Assembly: GCF_024362205.1 (NCBI RefSeq) | Contig: NZ_CP101462.1 | Location: 276,501 to 340,500, forward strand | Source of the DNA: Exiguobacterium aurantiacum | Lineage (GTDB): Bacteria; Bacillota; Bacilli; Exiguobacteriales; Exiguobacteriaceae | Reading direction: 5' to 3' | DNA length: 64,000 nucleotides | In this document: one piece after another, positions 2,102 to 60,002 of the stretch | Layout: each line of letters opens with the position of its first letter | Numbering within the stretch: position 1 is the first letter of the stretch | Notes under the pieces: model-generated | What the model saw: the letters and a program-made list of their open reading frames with translations, nothing else | What the model was told of the DNA's origin: nothing | Database searches by the model: none | Translations under genes and position numbers: made by a program

Positions 2102-2138
2102 AAGAAAAGTTTTGGATAGTATAGAAAGGATGAACGCA

Positions 2139-3854
2139 GTGAAACGACTGCAAGCTCTCGCTTTAGCTGAAAAACGCCACATTGTCGGGCTCGTCATCGC
2201 CGCAGTGATGATCGGGTTATCGATTTTGGCGCAGGCGTATTTAATCGTCGACATTGTCGATCAAGTCTTTTTAAAGAATGCATCGTTTGAAAGCATCGTT
2301 CCGACGCTCGGCTGGCTCATCCTTGCGCTCGTCACCCGTGCCTTGTTCGGGTACATGTCAGGACGAATCGGTGCGAGTCTATCGGAGAAGGCGAAACGGT
2401 CGCTCCGATTGCAATTGCTCGACCGCTATACGTCGAACCCGATCGAGACTTCTTTGTCCGGCCAATCGGGAAAGAAAGTCAGCGTCTACATGGACGCGGT
2501 CGATGAGGTCGACGCCTACTTCAGTCAATATTGGCCGCAAGTCATTCAAACGTCGATCATTCCGCTGCTCATTCTCGTCGTCGTCTTCAGCCAACATTGG
2601 ATCTCGGGCGTCATCATGATGGTGACGGCTCCGTTCATCCCGATTTTTTTCATCATCATCGGGATTGCGACACAGAAGAAGTCGGAAGAACAGATGGAGA
2701 AGATGAATCAGTTCTCCGGGAAGTTTCTGGACGTGCTGCAAGGACTGACGACGTTGAAACTATACGGTCGGACCGAACGCGAGGCAGAAGCCATCGAGAA
2801 GAGCAGTCTCGACTTCCGTGACGCGACGATGGTCGTCTTGAAGACGGCGTTCCTGTCGGGTCTCATGCTCGAGTTCATCTCGATGCTCAGCACAGGGGTT
2901 GTGGCACTCGAAGTGGCGCTACAAATGGTCGTTTGGCAGAACTTGACGTTCTTCTCCGGCTTTTTGATTCTCGTCTTGGCCCCGGAATATTATTTGGCCA
3001 TCAAAGACCTCGGCGGTGCGTTCCATACCGGACGCGGCAGCATGGGGGCCGCCGATCGTATTTTCGAGGCGCTCGACGCACCGGATGAACGCTTGAAATG
3101 GGGCGACCGGACGTTGACGAGCCGGACACCCGAACTCGAGCTCGAAGCCGTGTCGTTCGCTTACGAAGGTGGACGCTTCACGCTTCAGCCTGTAAGCGGC
3201 GTGATTCCTGCCAGGGCCCACGTGGCACTCGTCGGGGCGAGCGGGTCCGGGAAGACGACCGTCTTGAACGTGTTGTCCGGCCTCGTCAAACCGGACAGTG
3301 GGCGTGTCCTCGTCGACGGCGAACCGCTCGAGACGTATACCGATTCGTCATGGTATGACACGATCGGTTATATCTCACAAAATCCGTATTTGTTCGCCGG
3401 CGCCGTTGCTGATAATATCGCCCTCGGGGAAGCGGCGGATGAAGCGAGCATCCTCGAAGCGGTGAACGCGGCCGGACTGACTGATGTCATCGCCCAATTG
3501 CCGAACGGACTCGATACCGAGCTCGGTGAAGGGGGTTACGGCTTGTCTGGAGGCGAACGGCAACGGCTCGCCTTGGCACGTGCCTTCTTGAAACGTCCCG
3601 GCATCATCTTGTTCGATGAGCCGACGACGGGCCTTGATTTAGTGACCGAGCAAATCGTCCGCCGCTCAATCGATGAGTTGTCGCGTGATGCGACGCTCGT
3701 CACGGTCGCGCATCGATTGCATACGATCAAGCAGGCGGATGCGATTTGGTTCATGGAAGATGGTAAGCTCCTCGCCCAAGGCACGCATGATGAACTGCTG
3801 AGTGTCCCGCAGTATGCCGACTTGTTCACGTTGCAGAAAGGAGTGAGAGGATGA
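2139..3854 (+). CDS. cydD: CydD, thiol/heme exporter subunit (ABC permease-ATPase)
   Basis: Half-transporter with six membrane helices in residues ~1-310 and an ABC ATPase domain at ~330-570. Walker A is GASGSGKTT, the signature is LSGGERQR and Walker B is ILFDEP, with an H-loop in VTVAHR. With CydC it forms a heterodimer that in E. coli and Bacillus is needed for assembly of cytochrome bd; exported or bound substrates in the literature are glutathione/cysteine and heme. GTG 2139 is preferred because AAAGG at 2124-2128 sits ten bases before it; TTG 2112 and ATG 2130 are alternatives. It overlaps cydC by four bases (ATGA). The oxidase genes cydAB are not next to it, which differs from the B. 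subtilis cydABCD layout. Confidence 0.9.
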   Translation: MKRLQALALAEKRHIVGLVIAAVMIGLSILAQAYLIVDIVDQVFLKNASFESIVPTLGWLILALVTRALFGYMSGRIGASLSEKAKRSLRLQLLDRYTSNPIETSLSGQSGKKVSVYMDAVDEVDAYFSQYWPQVIQTSIIPLLILVVVFSQHWISGVIMMVTAPFIPIFFIIIGIATQKKSEEQMEKMNQFSGKFLDVLQGLTTLKLYGRTEREAEAIEKSSLDFRDATMVVLKTAFLSGLMLEFISMLSTGVVALEVALQMVVWQNLTFFSGFLILVLAPEYYLAIKDLGGAFHTGRGSMGAADRIFEALDAPDERLKWGDRTLTSRTPELELEAVSFAYEGGRFTLQPVSGVIPARAHVALVGASGSGKTTVLNVLSGLVKPDSGRVLVDGEPLETYTDSSWYDTIGYISQNPYLFAGAVADNIALGEAADEASILEAVNAAGLTDVIAQLPNGLDTELGEGGYGLSGGERQRLALARAFLKRPGIILFDEPTTGLDLVTEQIVRRSIDELSRDATLVTVAHRLHTIKQADAIWFMEDGKLLAQGTHDELLSVPQYADLFTLQKGVRG

Positions 3855-5566
3855 ATTCCCTTTGGACGATCACAAAATGGATGATGCGAGAGAAGAAAGA
3901 TATCGTCCTCTCGATCTTCTTTGGCTACGTGGCCGGTATCGCGGCCGTCGCCTTGTTCGCGGCGAGCGGCTATCTCGTCTCACGGGCCGGTCTCGTACCG
4001 CCGCTTTACGCGCTGATGGTGCCTGTCGTCTTGATTAAATTGTTCGGTGTGATTCGGGCGAGTGCGCGTTATCAAGAGCGCCTCGCCTCACACCGGGCGA
4101 CGTTCACAATTTTGAGCGAGCTACGGGTCCGGTTTTATCGTCAACTCGAGCCGCTCGTTCCGAGCATCTTTGCCAAGTATCGCAGCGGGGACTTGCTCGC
4201 TCGCGTCGTCGGTGACGTCGAGAGCTTGCAGAACTACTTTTTACGGGTGTTCTACCCGCCAATCATCTTGGTGCTCGTTTTCTTGAGCACGATTTTCTTC
4301 GTCACGTACTTCTCGGTCTGGGTCAGCATCTGGATTTTGTTCGGCGTCTTCGTGACGGGCTTTTTGATTCCGGCATTTTTCGCCCGTGTCCGTGCCAAAC
4401 ATGACCGAGAACTCCGTACCTTGCGAGGAGACCTGTCGAGTGGGATGACGGAGATGATGTACGGCTACCGGGACCTCTTGTTGCACCATCGGCTCGGTCA
4501 AACGCGCAACGAACTGCTTGAGCAGAGCGACCGCTACGCCGCTGCCCAGAAACGAGACGTGACGAACCAATTCTTCAACTCCTCACTCGTCGTGGCAGCG
4601 TCCTTGCTCGTCTCTTGGGGTGTTCTGGCCATCGGGGCCTATCTCGTCGTCGATGGGGAATTGAATGGCCTCTTCTTGGCCATGCTCATCATGATGTCGC
4701 TCACCGCGTTTGAGAACGCGACGCCGATGGCGGTCTTCCCAGGTCACTTTGCCGACAGCAAGCAAGCGGCCGACCGTTTGCTTGAAGTGGTCGAGCCAAG
4801 TGAAGCGATTGTCGCGGCAGAATCGTCCCGTACCGACATGGTGCTTGAGTCAGCGCCGGACGTATCGTTCGAGCGCGTCAGCTATCGCTATCCGGACACA
4901 TTCCGGGACGTATTGAGCGACGTCGACGTGACGTTGCGAAGCGGCTCGAAGACCGTCATCGTCGGACCGAGTGGTTCCGGAAAATCGACGTTGCTGCAAC
5001 TATTGCTCGCCTTTGTCAGACCCGATTCTGGTGAGATCCGATTGAATGGACAGCGGTTGGACGATGTGAGCCAAGCATCGGTCTGGCGTGAAGCCAGCGT
5101 CGTCCTTCAAGAGAATCACTTCTTCTTCGGGACGGTGCGGGAGAACTTGGCGCTCGCCGGAGATTTCGAAGACGCTGAGATGGAAGCGGCGCTCGCGAGT
5201 GTCCGCCTCGGCTTCGCACTCGACGAGCCCGTCCTTGAAAAAGGAGCGAACTTATCGGGCGGGGAACGGCAACGTCTCGCCATCGCTCGCGCAATGCTGA
5301 AGAACGGGGTGCTTTGGATTCTTGATGAAGCGACGTCGGCGCTCGATGCGCGGACCGAGGCGGACGTGTTCGCCGAGATTTCTCGCCTCGCTGAGTCATC
5401 GACGCTCGTCATGGTCAGTCATCGATTGACCGGGCTCGAGCGTTTCGATCACATTATCGTCATGGAAGGTGGTCGCGTCGTCGAGACGGGATCGTATGAT
5501 GAACTGATGCGGTCCCAGGGCGTGTTCTACGGATTGAAACAAATCGAACAAGATATCTTTGCATGA
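3851..5566 (+). CDS. cydC: CydC, thiol/heme exporter subunit (ABC permease-ATPase)
   Basis: Second half of the CydDC exporter, 571 residues. About six membrane helices fill residues 20-300, followed by an ATPase domain at ~340-570 with Walker A GPSGSGKST, signature LSGGERQR, Walker B WILDEATSALD and H-loop MVSHR. ATG 3851 overlaps the cydD stop, so the two subunits are translationally coupled. The product acts in the cytoplasmic membrane together with CydD. The strong terminator right after it ends the operon. Best distinguished from generic MsbA-type exporters by its pairing with cydD and by the near-equal subunit length. Confidence 0.9.
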   Translation: MNSLWTITKWMMREKKDIVLSIFFGYVAGIAAVALFAASGYLVSRAGLVPPLYALMVPVVLIKLFGVIRASARYQERLASHRATFTILSELRVRFYRQLEPLVPSIFAKYRSGDLLARVVGDVESLQNYFLRVFYPPIILVLVFLSTIFFVTYFSVWVSIWILFGVFVTGFLIPAFFARVRAKHDRELRTLRGDLSSGMTEMMYGYRDLLLHHRLGQTRNELLEQSDRYAAAQKRDVTNQFFNSSLVVAASLLVSWGVLAIGAYLVVDGELNGLFLAMLIMMSLTAFENATPMAVFPGHFADSKQAADRLLEVVEPSEAIVAAESSRTDMVLESAPDVSFERVSYRYPDTFRDVLSDVDVTLRSGSKTVIVGPSGSGKSTLLQLLLAFVRPDSGEIRLNGQRLDDVSQASVWREASVVLQENHFFFGTVRENLALAGDFEDAEMEAALASVRLGFALDEPVLEKGANLSGGERQRLAIARAMLKNGVLWILDEATSALDARTEADVFAEISRLAESSTLVMVSHRLTGLERFDHIIVMEGGRVVETGSYDELMRSQGVFYGLKQIEQDIFA

Positions 5567-5728
5567 AAAAAACGAGCGGCTCCGTCGGAGAGCCGCTCGT
5601 TTTTTGGATGGCAAATTTGGGTGCAACAAATGGGGGTTGTCGCATTGCTTTCAAAAAGAGTGTCGTGGAGGGGAATCCACGTGACGTAATGGTTTGGGGA
5701 ACGGTTACGTCAAGCTTTTGGGAGCTAC
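5565..5728 (-). ncRNA. Candidate Fur-controlled C-rich small RNA (FsrA-like)
   Basis: A strong minus-strand promoter (5735-5764) with a Fur box in its spacer faces about 160 bases that hold no plausible gene and end in the strong hairpin plus U run at 5571-5605. The RNA would carry several C runs: CCCC at 5699-5696, CCCCTCC at 5673-5667 and CCCCC at 5636-5632. CCCCTCC is the exact complement of a GGAGGGG ribosome site. Four of the Cs lie in the loop of a hairpin, stem CGTGGA/TCCACG with loop TTCCCC (5664-5681). These are the hallmarks of FsrA-type iron-sparing RNAs, which pair with Shine-Dalgarno sites through C-rich stretches. The class assignment is inference; sequence homology to FsrA was not tested. 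Confidence 0.6.
5571..5605. terminator. Bidirectional terminator (cydC and minus-strand RNA)
   Basis: Perfect 12-bp stem AACGAGCGGCTC / GAGCCGCTCGTT with a 7-base loop, T run on the plus side and seven As (U run on the minus side) on the other. It can end cydC and the minus-strand transcript from 5728. Confidence 0.9.
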
Positions 5729-5734
5729 ATCTTG

Positions 5735-5764
5735 AGTATAGGTGATAACGATTCTCATTGTCAA
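5735..5764 (-). promoter_or_regulatory. Minus-strand promoter with Fur box in the spacer
   Basis: On the minus strand: -35 TTGACA (5764-5759), 18-base spacer, -10 TATACT (5740-5735). On the plus strand GATAACGATTCTCATTGTC at 5744-5762 matches the 19-base Fur box GATAATGATAATCATTATC at 15 positions and fills the spacer. Nothing on the plus strand downstream could use it, since the next gene ends convergently at 5815. Confidence 0.75.
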
Positions 5765-7067: not shown

Positions 7068-8103
7068 AAATTAAGTGCAACACCCAAAAGTGAACACAAA
7101 AAAAGCCCACAGCGACGTCCTCGTGTAGAATGAAGTCACCACAACACACATTCAGACGGAGGAATCGCTATGAGCTACACCCATCTTACCACAACGGAAC
7201 GCGTGAAAATAGAGACGTATCTGGAGCTCGGGATGTCCATCCGGTCCATCGCGAGACGGATCGGGCGACAGCCATCGACCGTCTCGCGGGAGATCAGACG
7301 GAACCCCGGCTACGAATCGGGACGTGCCCAGAAACGCTACGAGAAGGCGAAGACCAACTGTGGCGCCAAGACGAAACTCGACGACACGATGCGCCGGACG
7401 ATCGTCGAGAAGCTGCGTGCGACCTGGTCCCCGGAACAGATCGTGGGACGGCTCTTCAACGGAAAGCTCGCCTTCTCCACCATCTACCGTTGGATCTATG
7501 CGGGACGGATCGACGTGCCCCTGACCGTGCTCCGCCAGAAAGGGAAACGTCAAAAGCCGACCGAGACGCGCGGACGCATCAACGTCGGACTCTCCATCTC
7601 GCAACGACCGCCAGAGGTCAGGGGGCGCCGGACGTTCGGGCACTGGGAGCTCGACACCGTCGTCTCCGGACGAGGGAAGTCGAAGGCGTGCGTCGCGACG
7701 TTCATCGAGCGGAAGAGCCGGTTCTATCTCGCCCTGCCGATCGCGGACCGCACCGCGGCCTCGATGGAGGGGGCGATCCATGCGGTGCACGTCGCCTTCC
7801 CGGACGGCACGTTCGAGACGGCGACGACGGACCGGGGCAAGGAGTTCAGCGGTCACGAGCGCATCCAGGCGTCACTCGGTGTGCCGATGTATTTCGCCGA
7901 CCCGTACGCATCGTGGCAACGGGGAAGCAACGAGAACGCCAACGGGCTCCTGCGCGAGTTCTTCCCGAAAGGAACGGACTTCGCGCAGGTGGCGCATGAC
8001 GAACTCGCGGACGCGCTCACCAAGATCAACGGGCGGCCGAGAAAATGCCTGAACTGGAAAACCGCACACGAGGCCTTCACCGAGGAAGTGTTGCGCTTAA
8101 TTT
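7068..8103 (+). mobile_element. IS30-family insertion sequence, 1036 bp
   Basis: Terminal inverted repeats AAATTAAGTGCAACAC (7068-7083) and GTGTTGCGCTTAATTT (8088-8103) match at 15 of 16 positions. One transposase gene fills the inside. The element interrupts a diguanylate cyclase gene lying on the other strand. I see no clear target duplication at the ends. The G+C content and codon use inside look higher than in the host gene on each side, in line with recent arrival. Confidence 0.88.
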
Positions 8104-8105
8104 GA
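7170..8105 (+). CDS. IS30-family transposase
   Basis: A 311-residue transposase. The N-terminus holds the IS30 helix-turn-helix (TTTERVKIETYLELGMSIRS, IARRIGRQPSTVSREIRRNPG). The DDE core follows: GHWELDTVVSGRGKSKACV carries the first aspartate, TATTDRGKEFSGHERI the second, and NENANGLLREFFPKGTDF the glutamate in the IS30 pattern. It is full length and shows no frameshift, so the element may be active. The TGA stop begins with the last base of the right repeat and is completed by host bases, so termination depends on the flanking DNA. Confidence 0.93.
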   Translation: MSYTHLTTTERVKIETYLELGMSIRSIARRIGRQPSTVSREIRRNPGYESGRAQKRYEKAKTNCGAKTKLDDTMRRTIVEKLRATWSPEQIVGRLFNGKLAFSTIYRWIYAGRIDVPLTVLRQKGKRQKPTETRGRINVGLSISQRPPEVRGRRTFGHWELDTVVSGRGKSKACVATFIERKSRFYLALPIADRTAASMEGAIHAVHVAFPDGTFETATTDRGKEFSGHERIQASLGVPMYFADPYASWQRGSNENANGLLREFFPKGTDFAQVAHDELADALTKINGRPRKCLNWKTAHEAFTEEVLRLI

Positions 8106-23219: not shown

Positions 23220-23487
23220 ATAAAGGCGTCGACGAAGAGAAGTAACGATGGTCCCCGTATGACAGAGAGCTGATGGTTGGTGTGAATCAGTATGCGGGAC
23301 GTCGCGAATGGACTTCCGAGCTCTAAACCGAAACTTTTAGTAGGCTTTAGCGGGTCACCCACCGTTACCATGGGAAAGCGGATGATTGTCCGTGAAGTGG
23401 GTTCTACGGAACCAACGAAGGTGGCACCACGGGGTTACTCGTCCTTCTCATAGCGTAAGCTATGAGAAGGGCGGGTAACCCTTTTTC
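23220..23487 (+). ncRNA. First Trp T-box leader with terminator
   Basis: Stem I contains the AG-bulge/GNUG features (AGAGAGCTGATGGTTGGTG) and a specifier loop GCGAATGGACTTCCGAGC with the codon TGG (23309-23311) for tryptophan. The conserved T-box AACGAAGGTGGCACCAC lies at 23414-23430. It is followed by a terminator stem GGGTTAC..CCTTCTCATAGC / GCTATGAGAAGG..GGTAACCC and TTTTT (23432-23487). Uncharged tRNA-Trp would favour the antiterminator. Confidence 0.9.
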
Positions 23488-23499
23488 GTTTCAATGCAT

Positions 23500-23751
23500 A
23501 GTAAATCAGTGATTGAGAAGAGTAGCGTGGACAAGTCTCGTCAAGAGAGCCGGGGGTGGTGGGATCCTGGCCGAGACATTTACGTGAATGGGCTCATGAG
23601 AGCATGGCTGAATCAAGTAGGTCATGACGGCTTCCTCCGTTATCGGGATACGATGTGATAGCATCGGAAAGTGGGATCGATCGATCCAACGAGAGGTGGC
23701 ACCGCGGTCCAAACCGTCCTCCATACGACAGACGTCGTATGGAGTTTTTTT
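23500..23751 (+). ncRNA. Second Trp T-box leader with terminator
   Basis: A second complete unit: stem I with AGAGAGCCGGGGGTGGTGGG, specifier loop ACGTGAATGGGCTCATGAG with TGG at 23589-23591, T-box AACGAGAGGTGGCACCGCGG near 23688-23707, and terminator CTCCATACGAC / GTCGTATGGAG (23719-23744) with seven Ts. Tandem units give a steeper response to tryptophan shortage. Confidence 0.9.
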
Positions 23752-41607: not shown

Positions 41608-41755
41608 AAAAAATGACCCCATGCCGAGGCAAGAGGTCATCATAAAAAATGAACTCTTATCTCTCAGCTTTCGCTGCAAGAATTAGCACCGTGCCATCTC
41701 TGGTCGGTTGCTGCGACATCATCGGGCTCGTCCCTCCGTCTGCTCTTGATAAGAA
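41608..41755 (-). ncRNA. SAM-I riboswitch of the mtnWXBD operon
   Basis: On the minus strand: P1 arms TCTTATC (41755) and GATAAGA (41655), core GGAGGGACGAGCCCGATGA, GCAGCAACCGACC, CACGGTGCTAATTC and GCTGAGAGATAAG, all SAM-I consensus elements. The terminator ATGACCTCTTGCC / GGCATGGGGTCAT with U run follows (41640-41608). Methionine or SAM excess would stop the operon. Confidence 0.93.
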
Positions 41756-41927: not shown

Positions 41928-41961
41928 TCATCACATAAGTTCACCGAATCGAATAATACAC

Positions 41962-42115
41962 TCTTATCGCGAGTTGGCAGAGGGAATTGGCCCGATGACG
42001 CCGCAGCAACCGACCACTAGGCACGGTGCTACATCCACCAGACGAATGTCTGACAGATGAGAGGAACAACCATTTTGGCTGTGCCTCTTTCTCGCGGAGA
42101 AAGGGGCTTTTTTTG
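41962..42115 (+). ncRNA. SAM-I riboswitch of the mtnKA-transporter operon
   Basis: P1 arms CTCTTATC (41962) and GATGAGAG (42057-42064), core GGCAGAGGGAATTGGCCCGA, CGCAGCAACCGACC, GGCACGGTGCTACATCC. Terminator GCCTCTTTCTC / GAGAAAGGGGC (42084-42108) with seven Ts. Same ligand logic as the divergent operon. Confidence 0.93.
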
Positions 42116-58866: not shown

Positions 58867-58901
58867 TAATGGACGTGTACTTTCAAAAAGGGGGAAACAA
58901 T

Positions 58902-60002
58902 ATGTTAGATCAACAAACGATGGATATCGTCAAAGCAACCGCACCAGTCTTGAAAGACCACGGTGTTGCCATCACGAGTCACTTCTATAAGCGCATGTTC
59001 GAAAATAACCCAGAAGTCCGCCACTTCTTCAACCATACGAACCAAAAACGCGGCCGTCAGCCAGAGGCGCTCGCCAACGCCGTCTACGCGGCAGCTGTCC
59101 ATATTGATCGTCTCGAAGCGATTCTCCCGGCCATCCAACCGGCGCTTCATAAACATAAGAGCTTAAACATCCGTCCGGAACATTATCCAATCGTCGGCGA
59201 GAACTTACTCGGCGCGATTCAAGACGTGCTCGGTGAAGCAGCTACGCCGGACATCATTGACGCGTGGGCGAAAGCATATGGTGTCATCGCCGACGTCTTC
59301 ATCTCACTCGAGAAACAGATGTATGCCGATGCGCCATGGATTGGTTTCAAACCGTTCACGGTCGCTGAAGTGATCGAAGACACACCGGAAGTGAAACGAT
59401 TCCGCCTTGTCGCGAACGATGGCATCGTCGGGACGGCCATCCCAGGTCAATACATCTCGGTCCAAGCCCGTATCGCTGGGGAAGACATCTTGCACCACCG
59501 TCAATATAGCGTCGTCGAGACGACAGAAGACGGTTACTGGATCGCTCCGAAGGCGGAAGGTCTCGTCTCAAACTGGCTCCATGAGCAGACGGTCGGCACG
59601 GAAATTCCGGTGAGTGCCCCAGCTGGCGAATTTGTCCTCGAAGAGACAGATCGTCCGCTCACACTCGTCGCTGGCGGGATCGGTATCACACCGCTCTTCA
59701 ACATGGCGAAAACGGCACTCGGCCAAGGGCGTTCAGTCACGTTATTGCACGCGGTCCGTAGCACGAACCTCCGTCCGCTCGGTGAAGAACTCGACGAACT
59801 CGTGAACGATGGCCTCCAGCTCATCACACACGTTGATGACGTATCAGGTTGCATGAATGCGACCCAACTCAAAGCACTCGATGTCGACGGCCATGACGTT
59901 TACACGTGCGGTCCGACCGCGATGATGGAGACGGTCGTCCAAACGATTCCACAAGCCCGTTACGAGTTCTTCGGTCCATCGGCCGTACTTGCACGCGCTT
60001 AA
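58902..60002 (+). CDS. hmp: Flavohemoglobin (nitric oxide dioxygenase)
   Basis: 366 residues; most Hmp are near 400. Globin domain (1-~140) with Tyr in TSHFYKRMF, distal Gln in GRQPEALANAV and proximal His in HKHKSLNIRPEHYPIVG. FAD domain (~150-260) with RQYSVVE, and NAD domain with LVAGGIGITPLFNM and VYTCGPTAMMETV. It turns NO plus oxygen into nitrate. ATG 58902 follows AAAGGGGG; the frame to 58869 overlaps the operator. Divergent from nsrR. Strong codon bias suggests high expression on induction. Confidence 0.95.
   Translation: MLDQQTMDIVKATAPVLKDHGVAITSHFYKRMFENNPEVRHFFNHTNQKRGRQPEALANAVYAAAVHIDRLEAILPAIQPALHKHKSLNIRPEHYPIVGENLLGAIQDVLGEAATPDIIDAWAKAYGVIADVFISLEKQMYADAPWIGFKPFTVAEVIEDTPEVKRFRLVANDGIVGTAIPGQYISVQARIAGEDILHHRQYSVVETTEDGYWIAPKAEGLVSNWLHEQTVGTEIPVSAPAGEFVLEETDRPLTLVAGGIGITPLFNMAKTALGQGRSVTLLHAVRSTNLRPLGEELDELVNDGLQLITHVDDVSGCMNATQLKALDVDGHDVYTCGPTAMMETVVQTIPQARYEFFGPSAVLARA

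Follow-up and report, generated by a model that had tools for sequence, protein, structure and literature searches.

A non-coding transcription unit convergent with cydC in Exiguobacterium aurantiacum very likely encodes a Fur-repressed, trans-acting, iron-sparing small RNA that pairs through a short linker with the acnA, lipA and hmp mRNAs. The unit lies within the 64,000-nucleotide stretch of contig NZ_CP101462.1 that we analyzed (the window), and all positions below are window positions unless stated otherwise. Judging from its sequence, the RNA would act as follows. While iron is present, Fur would cover the promoter. When iron becomes scarce, Fur would leave the promoter, and an RNA of about 163 nt, ending at a terminator held in common with cydC, would be made. 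Its linker, CUCUUUUUGAAAGC, would bind the acnA, lipA and hmp mRNAs at CUUUCAAAAAGGG, in their ribosome-binding sites, and this pairing would block translation and so spare the iron otherwise taken up by AcnA, LipA and Hmp. The C-rich loops of the RNA would probably reach further G-rich ribosome sites.

Promoter, Fur box and limits of the transcription unit

The minus strand carries a sigma-A-type promoter at 5735..5764, with TTGACA at 5764-5759 and TATACT at 5740-5735 separated by an 18-nt spacer. The initial annotation of this DNA had read the same hexamers and spacer. The promoter matches at 11 of 12 positions and is the one promoter-like site between 5000 and 6300, where shuffled sequence has a mean of 0.5. 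A Fur box, GACAATGAGAATCGTTATC, occupies 5744..5762 on the same strand and agrees with 16 of the 19 positions of the 19-bp Fur consensus GATAATGATAATCATTATC. The box had been noted before, although with 15 matches and as lying inside the spacer, whereas it also overlaps the -35 hexamer. A search of the host genome with the 15-bp core of the motif, TGATAATNATTATCA, allowing up to two mismatches, returns 26 sites, compared to seven for the reversed pattern; the box described here has two mismatches to this core. All six host sites with at most one mismatch adjoin genes of iron-uptake type or flavodoxin genes (for FecCD, an ABC ATPase, Peripla_BP_2 binding proteins, flavodoxin or an extracellular binding protein), suggesting that the core motif is the working Fur box in this genome. 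The combined promoter and Fur box pattern is found without mismatch in all 19 genomes of the host clade, while its reversed control has no match in 38 genomes.

With transcription start guessed from the position of the -10 hexamer, the putative small RNA is about 163 nt long (5566..5728, minus strand). An inverted repeat at approximately 5566-5606 ends 163 nt past the predicted start and shows compensatory changes among related genomes, which agrees with the strong bidirectional hairpin that had been placed some 160 bases downstream of the promoter. By reading, the minus strand holds no gene of its own before the convergent cydC, as also stated previously. On the minus strand, hairpin 3 of the RNA (5664-5681) and the T run that follows it also resemble a terminator by score, and transcription might therefore stop early to give an RNA of about 80 nt.

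The neighboring genes are those named in the initial annotation. The cydC gene (3851..5566, plus strand) matches TIGR02868 with 415.6 bits against a cut-off of 329.05, and cydD (2112..3854, plus strand) matches TIGR02857 with 544.5 bits against a cut-off of 435. The neighborhood itself, to which the initial annotation had drawn attention, appears incidental, since the two transcription units converge and have their terminator in common. Elsewhere in the window are a tandem pair of T-box leaders on the plus strand (23220-23449 and 23500-23724; 132.7 and 135.9 bits), two divergent SAM riboswitches (41654-41755 on the minus strand and 41961-42063 on the plus strand) and a transposase-like ORF (7170-8105, plus strand) that by eye we presume to be IS30-like.

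Conservation, distribution and predicted structure

We compared 19 genomes of the host genus clade, the host included, with 19 genomes of a sister genus from its family. All 19 host-clade genomes contain the unit by BLAST, and a covariance model built for the RNA, the search proposed in the initial annotation, matches each of them with an E value of 3.1e-44 or better. In the 19 sister-clade genomes the same model gives only weak matches, the best at E 1.7e-5 and many confined to the terminator. A pattern search among genomes with assigned names places the element in Exiguobacterium: it returns 19 stretches, 15 of them from this genus (E. aurantiacum, E. profundum, E. aestuarii, E. chiriqhucha and others); the other four belong to single unrelated taxa and look like chance matches.

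BLAST, the covariance model and a reading of individual loci yield no convincing copy of the unit in the 19 sister-clade genomes. In 17 of 18 sister-clade genomes, and in a single genome from a different family, the BLAST match is confined to the promoter, and the 11 such loci that we read (10 from the sister clade and L020 from the other family) are without such an RNA. Nine of the 10 sister-clade promoters stand directly before an ORF that we take by eye to be nitroreductase-like, and at the tenth, L021, the ORF lies about 300 nt further on. The promoter at the former loci (L022-L030) is a near-identical Fur-box promoter, TTGACAATGATAATCGTTATCA, which in two genomes (G025 and G029) is located about 15 kb from cydC. 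The regions downstream of cydC in 11 of the 19 sister-clade genomes contain nothing that resembles the small RNA by eye. Nine weak model matches, eight from the sister clade and one from the host clade, were also read and have no Fur-like box. Three sister-clade loci with a weak model match and no Fur box (L341, L342 and L345) hold a common stretch with CGTTTCCCCAAAC and CACCTCC, which probably represents the start of a gene on the opposite strand.

Between the host and seven other species, identity is 77-93% in the RNA and 87-97% in the promoter; it falls to 37-54% among the fourfold sites of cydC and to 41-70% in the DNA upstream of the -35 hexamer. In the most distant genome (G001) the RNA, at 77%, is slightly above cydC as a whole, at 73%. 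The slowest-changing parts are loop 2 (100%), hairpins 3 and 4 (99%) and the linker (98%), so the conservation of the C-rich loop that had been expected in related species is indeed found. In the stem of hairpin 2 identity drops to 77-78%, with covariation between the paired bases. In one genome (G002, locus L007), an insertion of about 1.46 kb with inverted-repeat ends splits the terminator, so that the RNA may end elsewhere there; because of this insertion the alignment comprises the other 18 of the 19 clade sequences. With this exception, the sequences present an independent, conserved, non-coding unit with its own Fur-box promoter and terminator.

The predicted minimum free energy of the whole RNA is -57.2 kcal/mol (z -9.3), and that of the RNA minus its terminator is -30.0 kcal/mol (z -6.0); in each case none of 200 shuffled sequences folds as well. 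The consensus structure has 42 pairs, eight of which show compensatory change, four in hairpin 2 and four in the terminator. Hairpin 2 (5682..5712, minus strand, as are all elements of the RNA) contains the invariant CGUUCCCCAAAC. It is followed by hairpin 3 (CGUGGA-UUCCCC-UCCACG), by the linker (5647..5660) and by hairpin 4 (5622..5644), whose loop is CCCCCAU. Hairpins 3 and 4 vary hardly at all and therefore give no covariation evidence. Stretches rich in C occupy the loops of hairpins 2, 3 and 4, the vicinity of the 5' end and the region after hairpin 4. The initial annotation correctly placed a CCCC run in the loop of the CGTGGA/TCCACG hairpin (UUCCCC, 5675-5670), but it counted three C runs where we count five of at least three C. 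The predicted fold also pairs part of the linker with the 5' end of the RNA, and the U run of the linker is unpaired with a probability of about 0.5.

Predicted pairing with iron-protein mRNAs

Candidate targets were sought among 1618 genes in 1.66 Mb of the 3.15-Mb host genome using a home-made gene caller that mis-started at least atpB and hmp; the hmp start was corrected by hand for the helix-energy and linker-shuffle tests. Helix energies were computed from stacking energies, and iron proteins were defined by PROSITE-like motifs. Two known targets of iron small RNAs, aconitase and SdhC, both of them targets of FsrA, were chosen in advance, and a qcrA-like Rieske-type protein was picked for its energy rank of 14. 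The acnA, sdhC and qcrA-like leaders were each read in all 19 clade genomes. Since the aconitase mRNA is targeted by all of the iron small RNAs discussed in PMC9410917, acnA provides a fair prior test.

The linker can form 14 bp, one of them G-U, with the Shine-Dalgarno region of acnA, GCUUUCAAAAAGGG, and 13 bp at lipA and at hmp. The acnA leader has TTTCAAAAAGGGGG ahead of the start codon in 18 of the 19 genomes, with one substitution in the remaining genome (G011). When each leader is set against the RNA of its own genome, an exact Watson-Crick complement of 12 nt exists in 17 of 19 cases; the exceptions are G009, where it measures 9 nt because the linker has lost a U, and G011, where it measures 7 nt. 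Among the 1618 sampled host leaders, two reach a 12-nt complement with any part of the RNA, namely those of the mis-started atpB and of an ABC transporter gene with a Fur box. The atpB match is discarded as a leader target, because the start was called too late and the site lies inside the gene. In the other gene, which encodes an ABC transporter ATPase and has its own Fur box (L066, ~1501-1547; host C1:2462443), the 12 nt exactly complementary to hairpin 3 (AGGGGAATCCAC) lie immediately ahead of the start codon. This complement is seen in the host alone and hints at a possible feedback on iron uptake. Ranked by helix energy, acnA is 22nd of 1619, a result that six of 300 shuffled RNAs also reach. 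These comparisons leave acnA well supported as a predicted target of the RNA.

A search of the whole host genome with the pattern TTTCAAAAAGNGG returns three sites, located 8-9 nt before the start codons of acnA, lipA and hmp, so that all three matches precede iron-protein genes. Because the pattern was designed after acnA and lipA had been seen, hmp is the sole fully new host match. The identity of lipA is given by TIGR00510 above its cut-off. The predicted hmp site, CTTTCAAAAAGGG, covers the Shine-Dalgarno sequence at 58880..58892 on the plus strand, ahead of a gene (58902..60002, plus strand) whose hmp-like flavohaemoprotein product matches the NO-inducible flavohaemoprotein model NF009805 below its cut-off (E 1.8e-108; 363 bits, cut-off 432). 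Across the 19 clade genomes the pattern has 68 matches, compared to 12 for the reversed pattern. Thirty-eight of the 68 are at acnA, lipA or hmp, three of these being assigned by position alone, and 30 are elsewhere. The eight of these 30 that we read (L296, L297, L300, L301, L307, L308, L309 and L311) are followed by no recognized iron gene, with L300, L309 and L311 standing shortly before some ORF.

About half of the 19 genomes have exact lipA and hmp sites. At hmp the site is exact in nine genomes read and, by position alone, in G014, and it is altered in eight; in G003 no hmp gene was found. At lipA it is exact in eight genomes read and, by position alone, in G010 and G014, and it is altered in seven; it was not seen in G006 and G015. 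One genome, G011, has no exact site at acnA, lipA or hmp, and the clade genomes compared show no compensatory change between the linker and its predicted targets. With an 11-nt exact complement, the real linker reaches exactly two sampled leaders, those of lipA and hmp, and one of 300 mononucleotide shuffles of the linker likewise reaches two. By single-target helix energy, the lipA result is also reached by 53 of 300 shuffled RNAs and the hmp result by 38 of 300. The case for lipA and hmp as predicted targets is supported, mainly by the exact-match search.

It is possible, although unlikely, that the RNA is Fur-controlled but recognizes G-rich Shine-Dalgarno sequences generally by means of its C-rich loops, with the linker match being incidental. 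The near-invariance of loop 2 and of hairpins 3 and 4 would suit such a mode of action, as would the qcrA-like leader GGGGAACG and the sdhC leader GGGGGAAC, each present in 18 of 19 genomes and complementary to loop 2. An accessibility-weighted screen ranks the qcrA-like gene 14th of 1617, followed by lutC-like (20th), ctaC-like (48th) and lutB-like (96th) genes; the names lutB, lutC, ctaC and qcrA are our assignments by eye, the lutC-like protein having no family in a library scan and the qcrA-like protein matching Rieske models below their cut-offs. Nevertheless, leaders with strong helices are in no clear excess (107, compared to 88 ± 27 for shuffled RNAs), and the complementarity at sdhC and qcrA is no better than that of shuffled RNAs. 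Shuffled RNAs do as well in 107 of 300 cases for qcrA, 109 for ctaC-like, 142 for lutC-like, 162 for sdhC and 209 for lutB-like, as well as in 23 of 300 for acnA and sdhC jointly and in 40 of 300 for a five-target rank statistic. The energy list is headed by rnhB, the mis-started atpB, a DUF4097/HAAS protein and others; among 20 top-ranked proteins scanned, 10 per library, there is one recognized iron protein, of Rieske type, and motif-defined iron proteins are not enriched among the predicted targets (p 0.30). A BLAST search of the host genome for complements to the whole RNA returns the small RNA locus alone. Moreover, the linker is conserved to a similar degree as the loops, and the leaders of three iron-protein genes carry its exact complement. 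Thus, the earlier suggestion of FsrA-type pairing holds insofar as the RNA is complementary to mRNAs of iron enzymes, but the best-supported pairing involves the A/U-rich linker rather than a C-rich CCCCTCC loop.

Several similar C-rich loops could also serve to titrate another RNA or a protein, and a sponge of RoxS has been described in B. subtilis (PMC8216469). Such a role is very improbable for this RNA, as it would leave the match of the linker to three iron-protein leaders unexplained. Least probable of all is a messenger for a Fur-controlled small protein: a regulated promoter, a terminator and short frames on both strands are present, but single-base indels at several alignment sites shift the frames, on which ground we reject a small protein at this locus, and the conserved parts are the hairpins, loops and linker. 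The Fur-controlled non-coding RNA of the initial annotation, conserved across the clade, is supported by sequence.

Relation to known iron-sparing small RNAs

Iron-sparing small RNAs appear to have arisen several times, as discussed in PMC9410917. We lean somewhat towards regarding the Exiguobacterium RNA as a further independently evolved example in the Bacilli, confined to one Exiguobacterium clade, with an A/U-rich linker as its main seed and an acnA, lipA and hmp regulon in which lipA and hmp were gained or lost between subclades. If so, it would offer a compact case, in an environmental genus, for the study of small RNA origin and of target gain and loss, being present throughout one clade, with no convincing copy in its sister, and having three nameable targets. 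These bacteria would then be predicted to curb lipoate synthesis and NO detoxification when starved of iron. None of the titles and abstracts searched on Exiguobacterium small RNAs describes this RNA, and a genus-wide study (PMC10837837) gives predicted small RNA numbers.

The initial annotation had looked for an equivalent of FsrA. Homology to FsrA is not borne out: with stricter filters, the covariance model RF02273 has no match in any of 37 genomes of the Exiguobacterium family, while the B. subtilis control is positive, as is a further genome from the class. Nor does any Rfam family, RoxS/RsaE included, match the locus at gathering score, the best sub-threshold match reaching 24.9 bits where 55 are needed. 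The likeness to FsrA of Bacillus subtilis lies instead in control by Fur, in C-rich single-stranded parts and in aconitase as a predicted target; the targets of FsrA include citB, sdhC, lutABC and others (PMC12871923). The two RNAs differ in length (163 nt here and 84 nt for FsrA) and in that the best pairing here is made by an A/U-rich linker.

The RNA shares with the RyhB and PrrF class the same iron-sparing logic, the latter being Hfq-dependent RNAs of proteobacteria (PMC9410917). Like IsrR of Staphylococcus, as characterized in PMC9410917 and PMC11257911, it is Fur-controlled, conserved genus-wide and of similar length (174 nt for IsrR), with C-rich regions partly in hairpin loops, its own terminator and aconitase as a target, here a predicted one. 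LipA and Hmp are not mentioned in the main text of either paper. IsrR, in the same accounts, has two Fur boxes, one of them just downstream of the start, whereas one is seen here: no second site near the promoter lies within two mismatches of the core, and flanking boxes of the IsrR type are absent at that threshold. We therefore file the RNA as its own sequence family within the functional kind represented by FsrA and IsrR, with one visible Fur box where IsrR has two.
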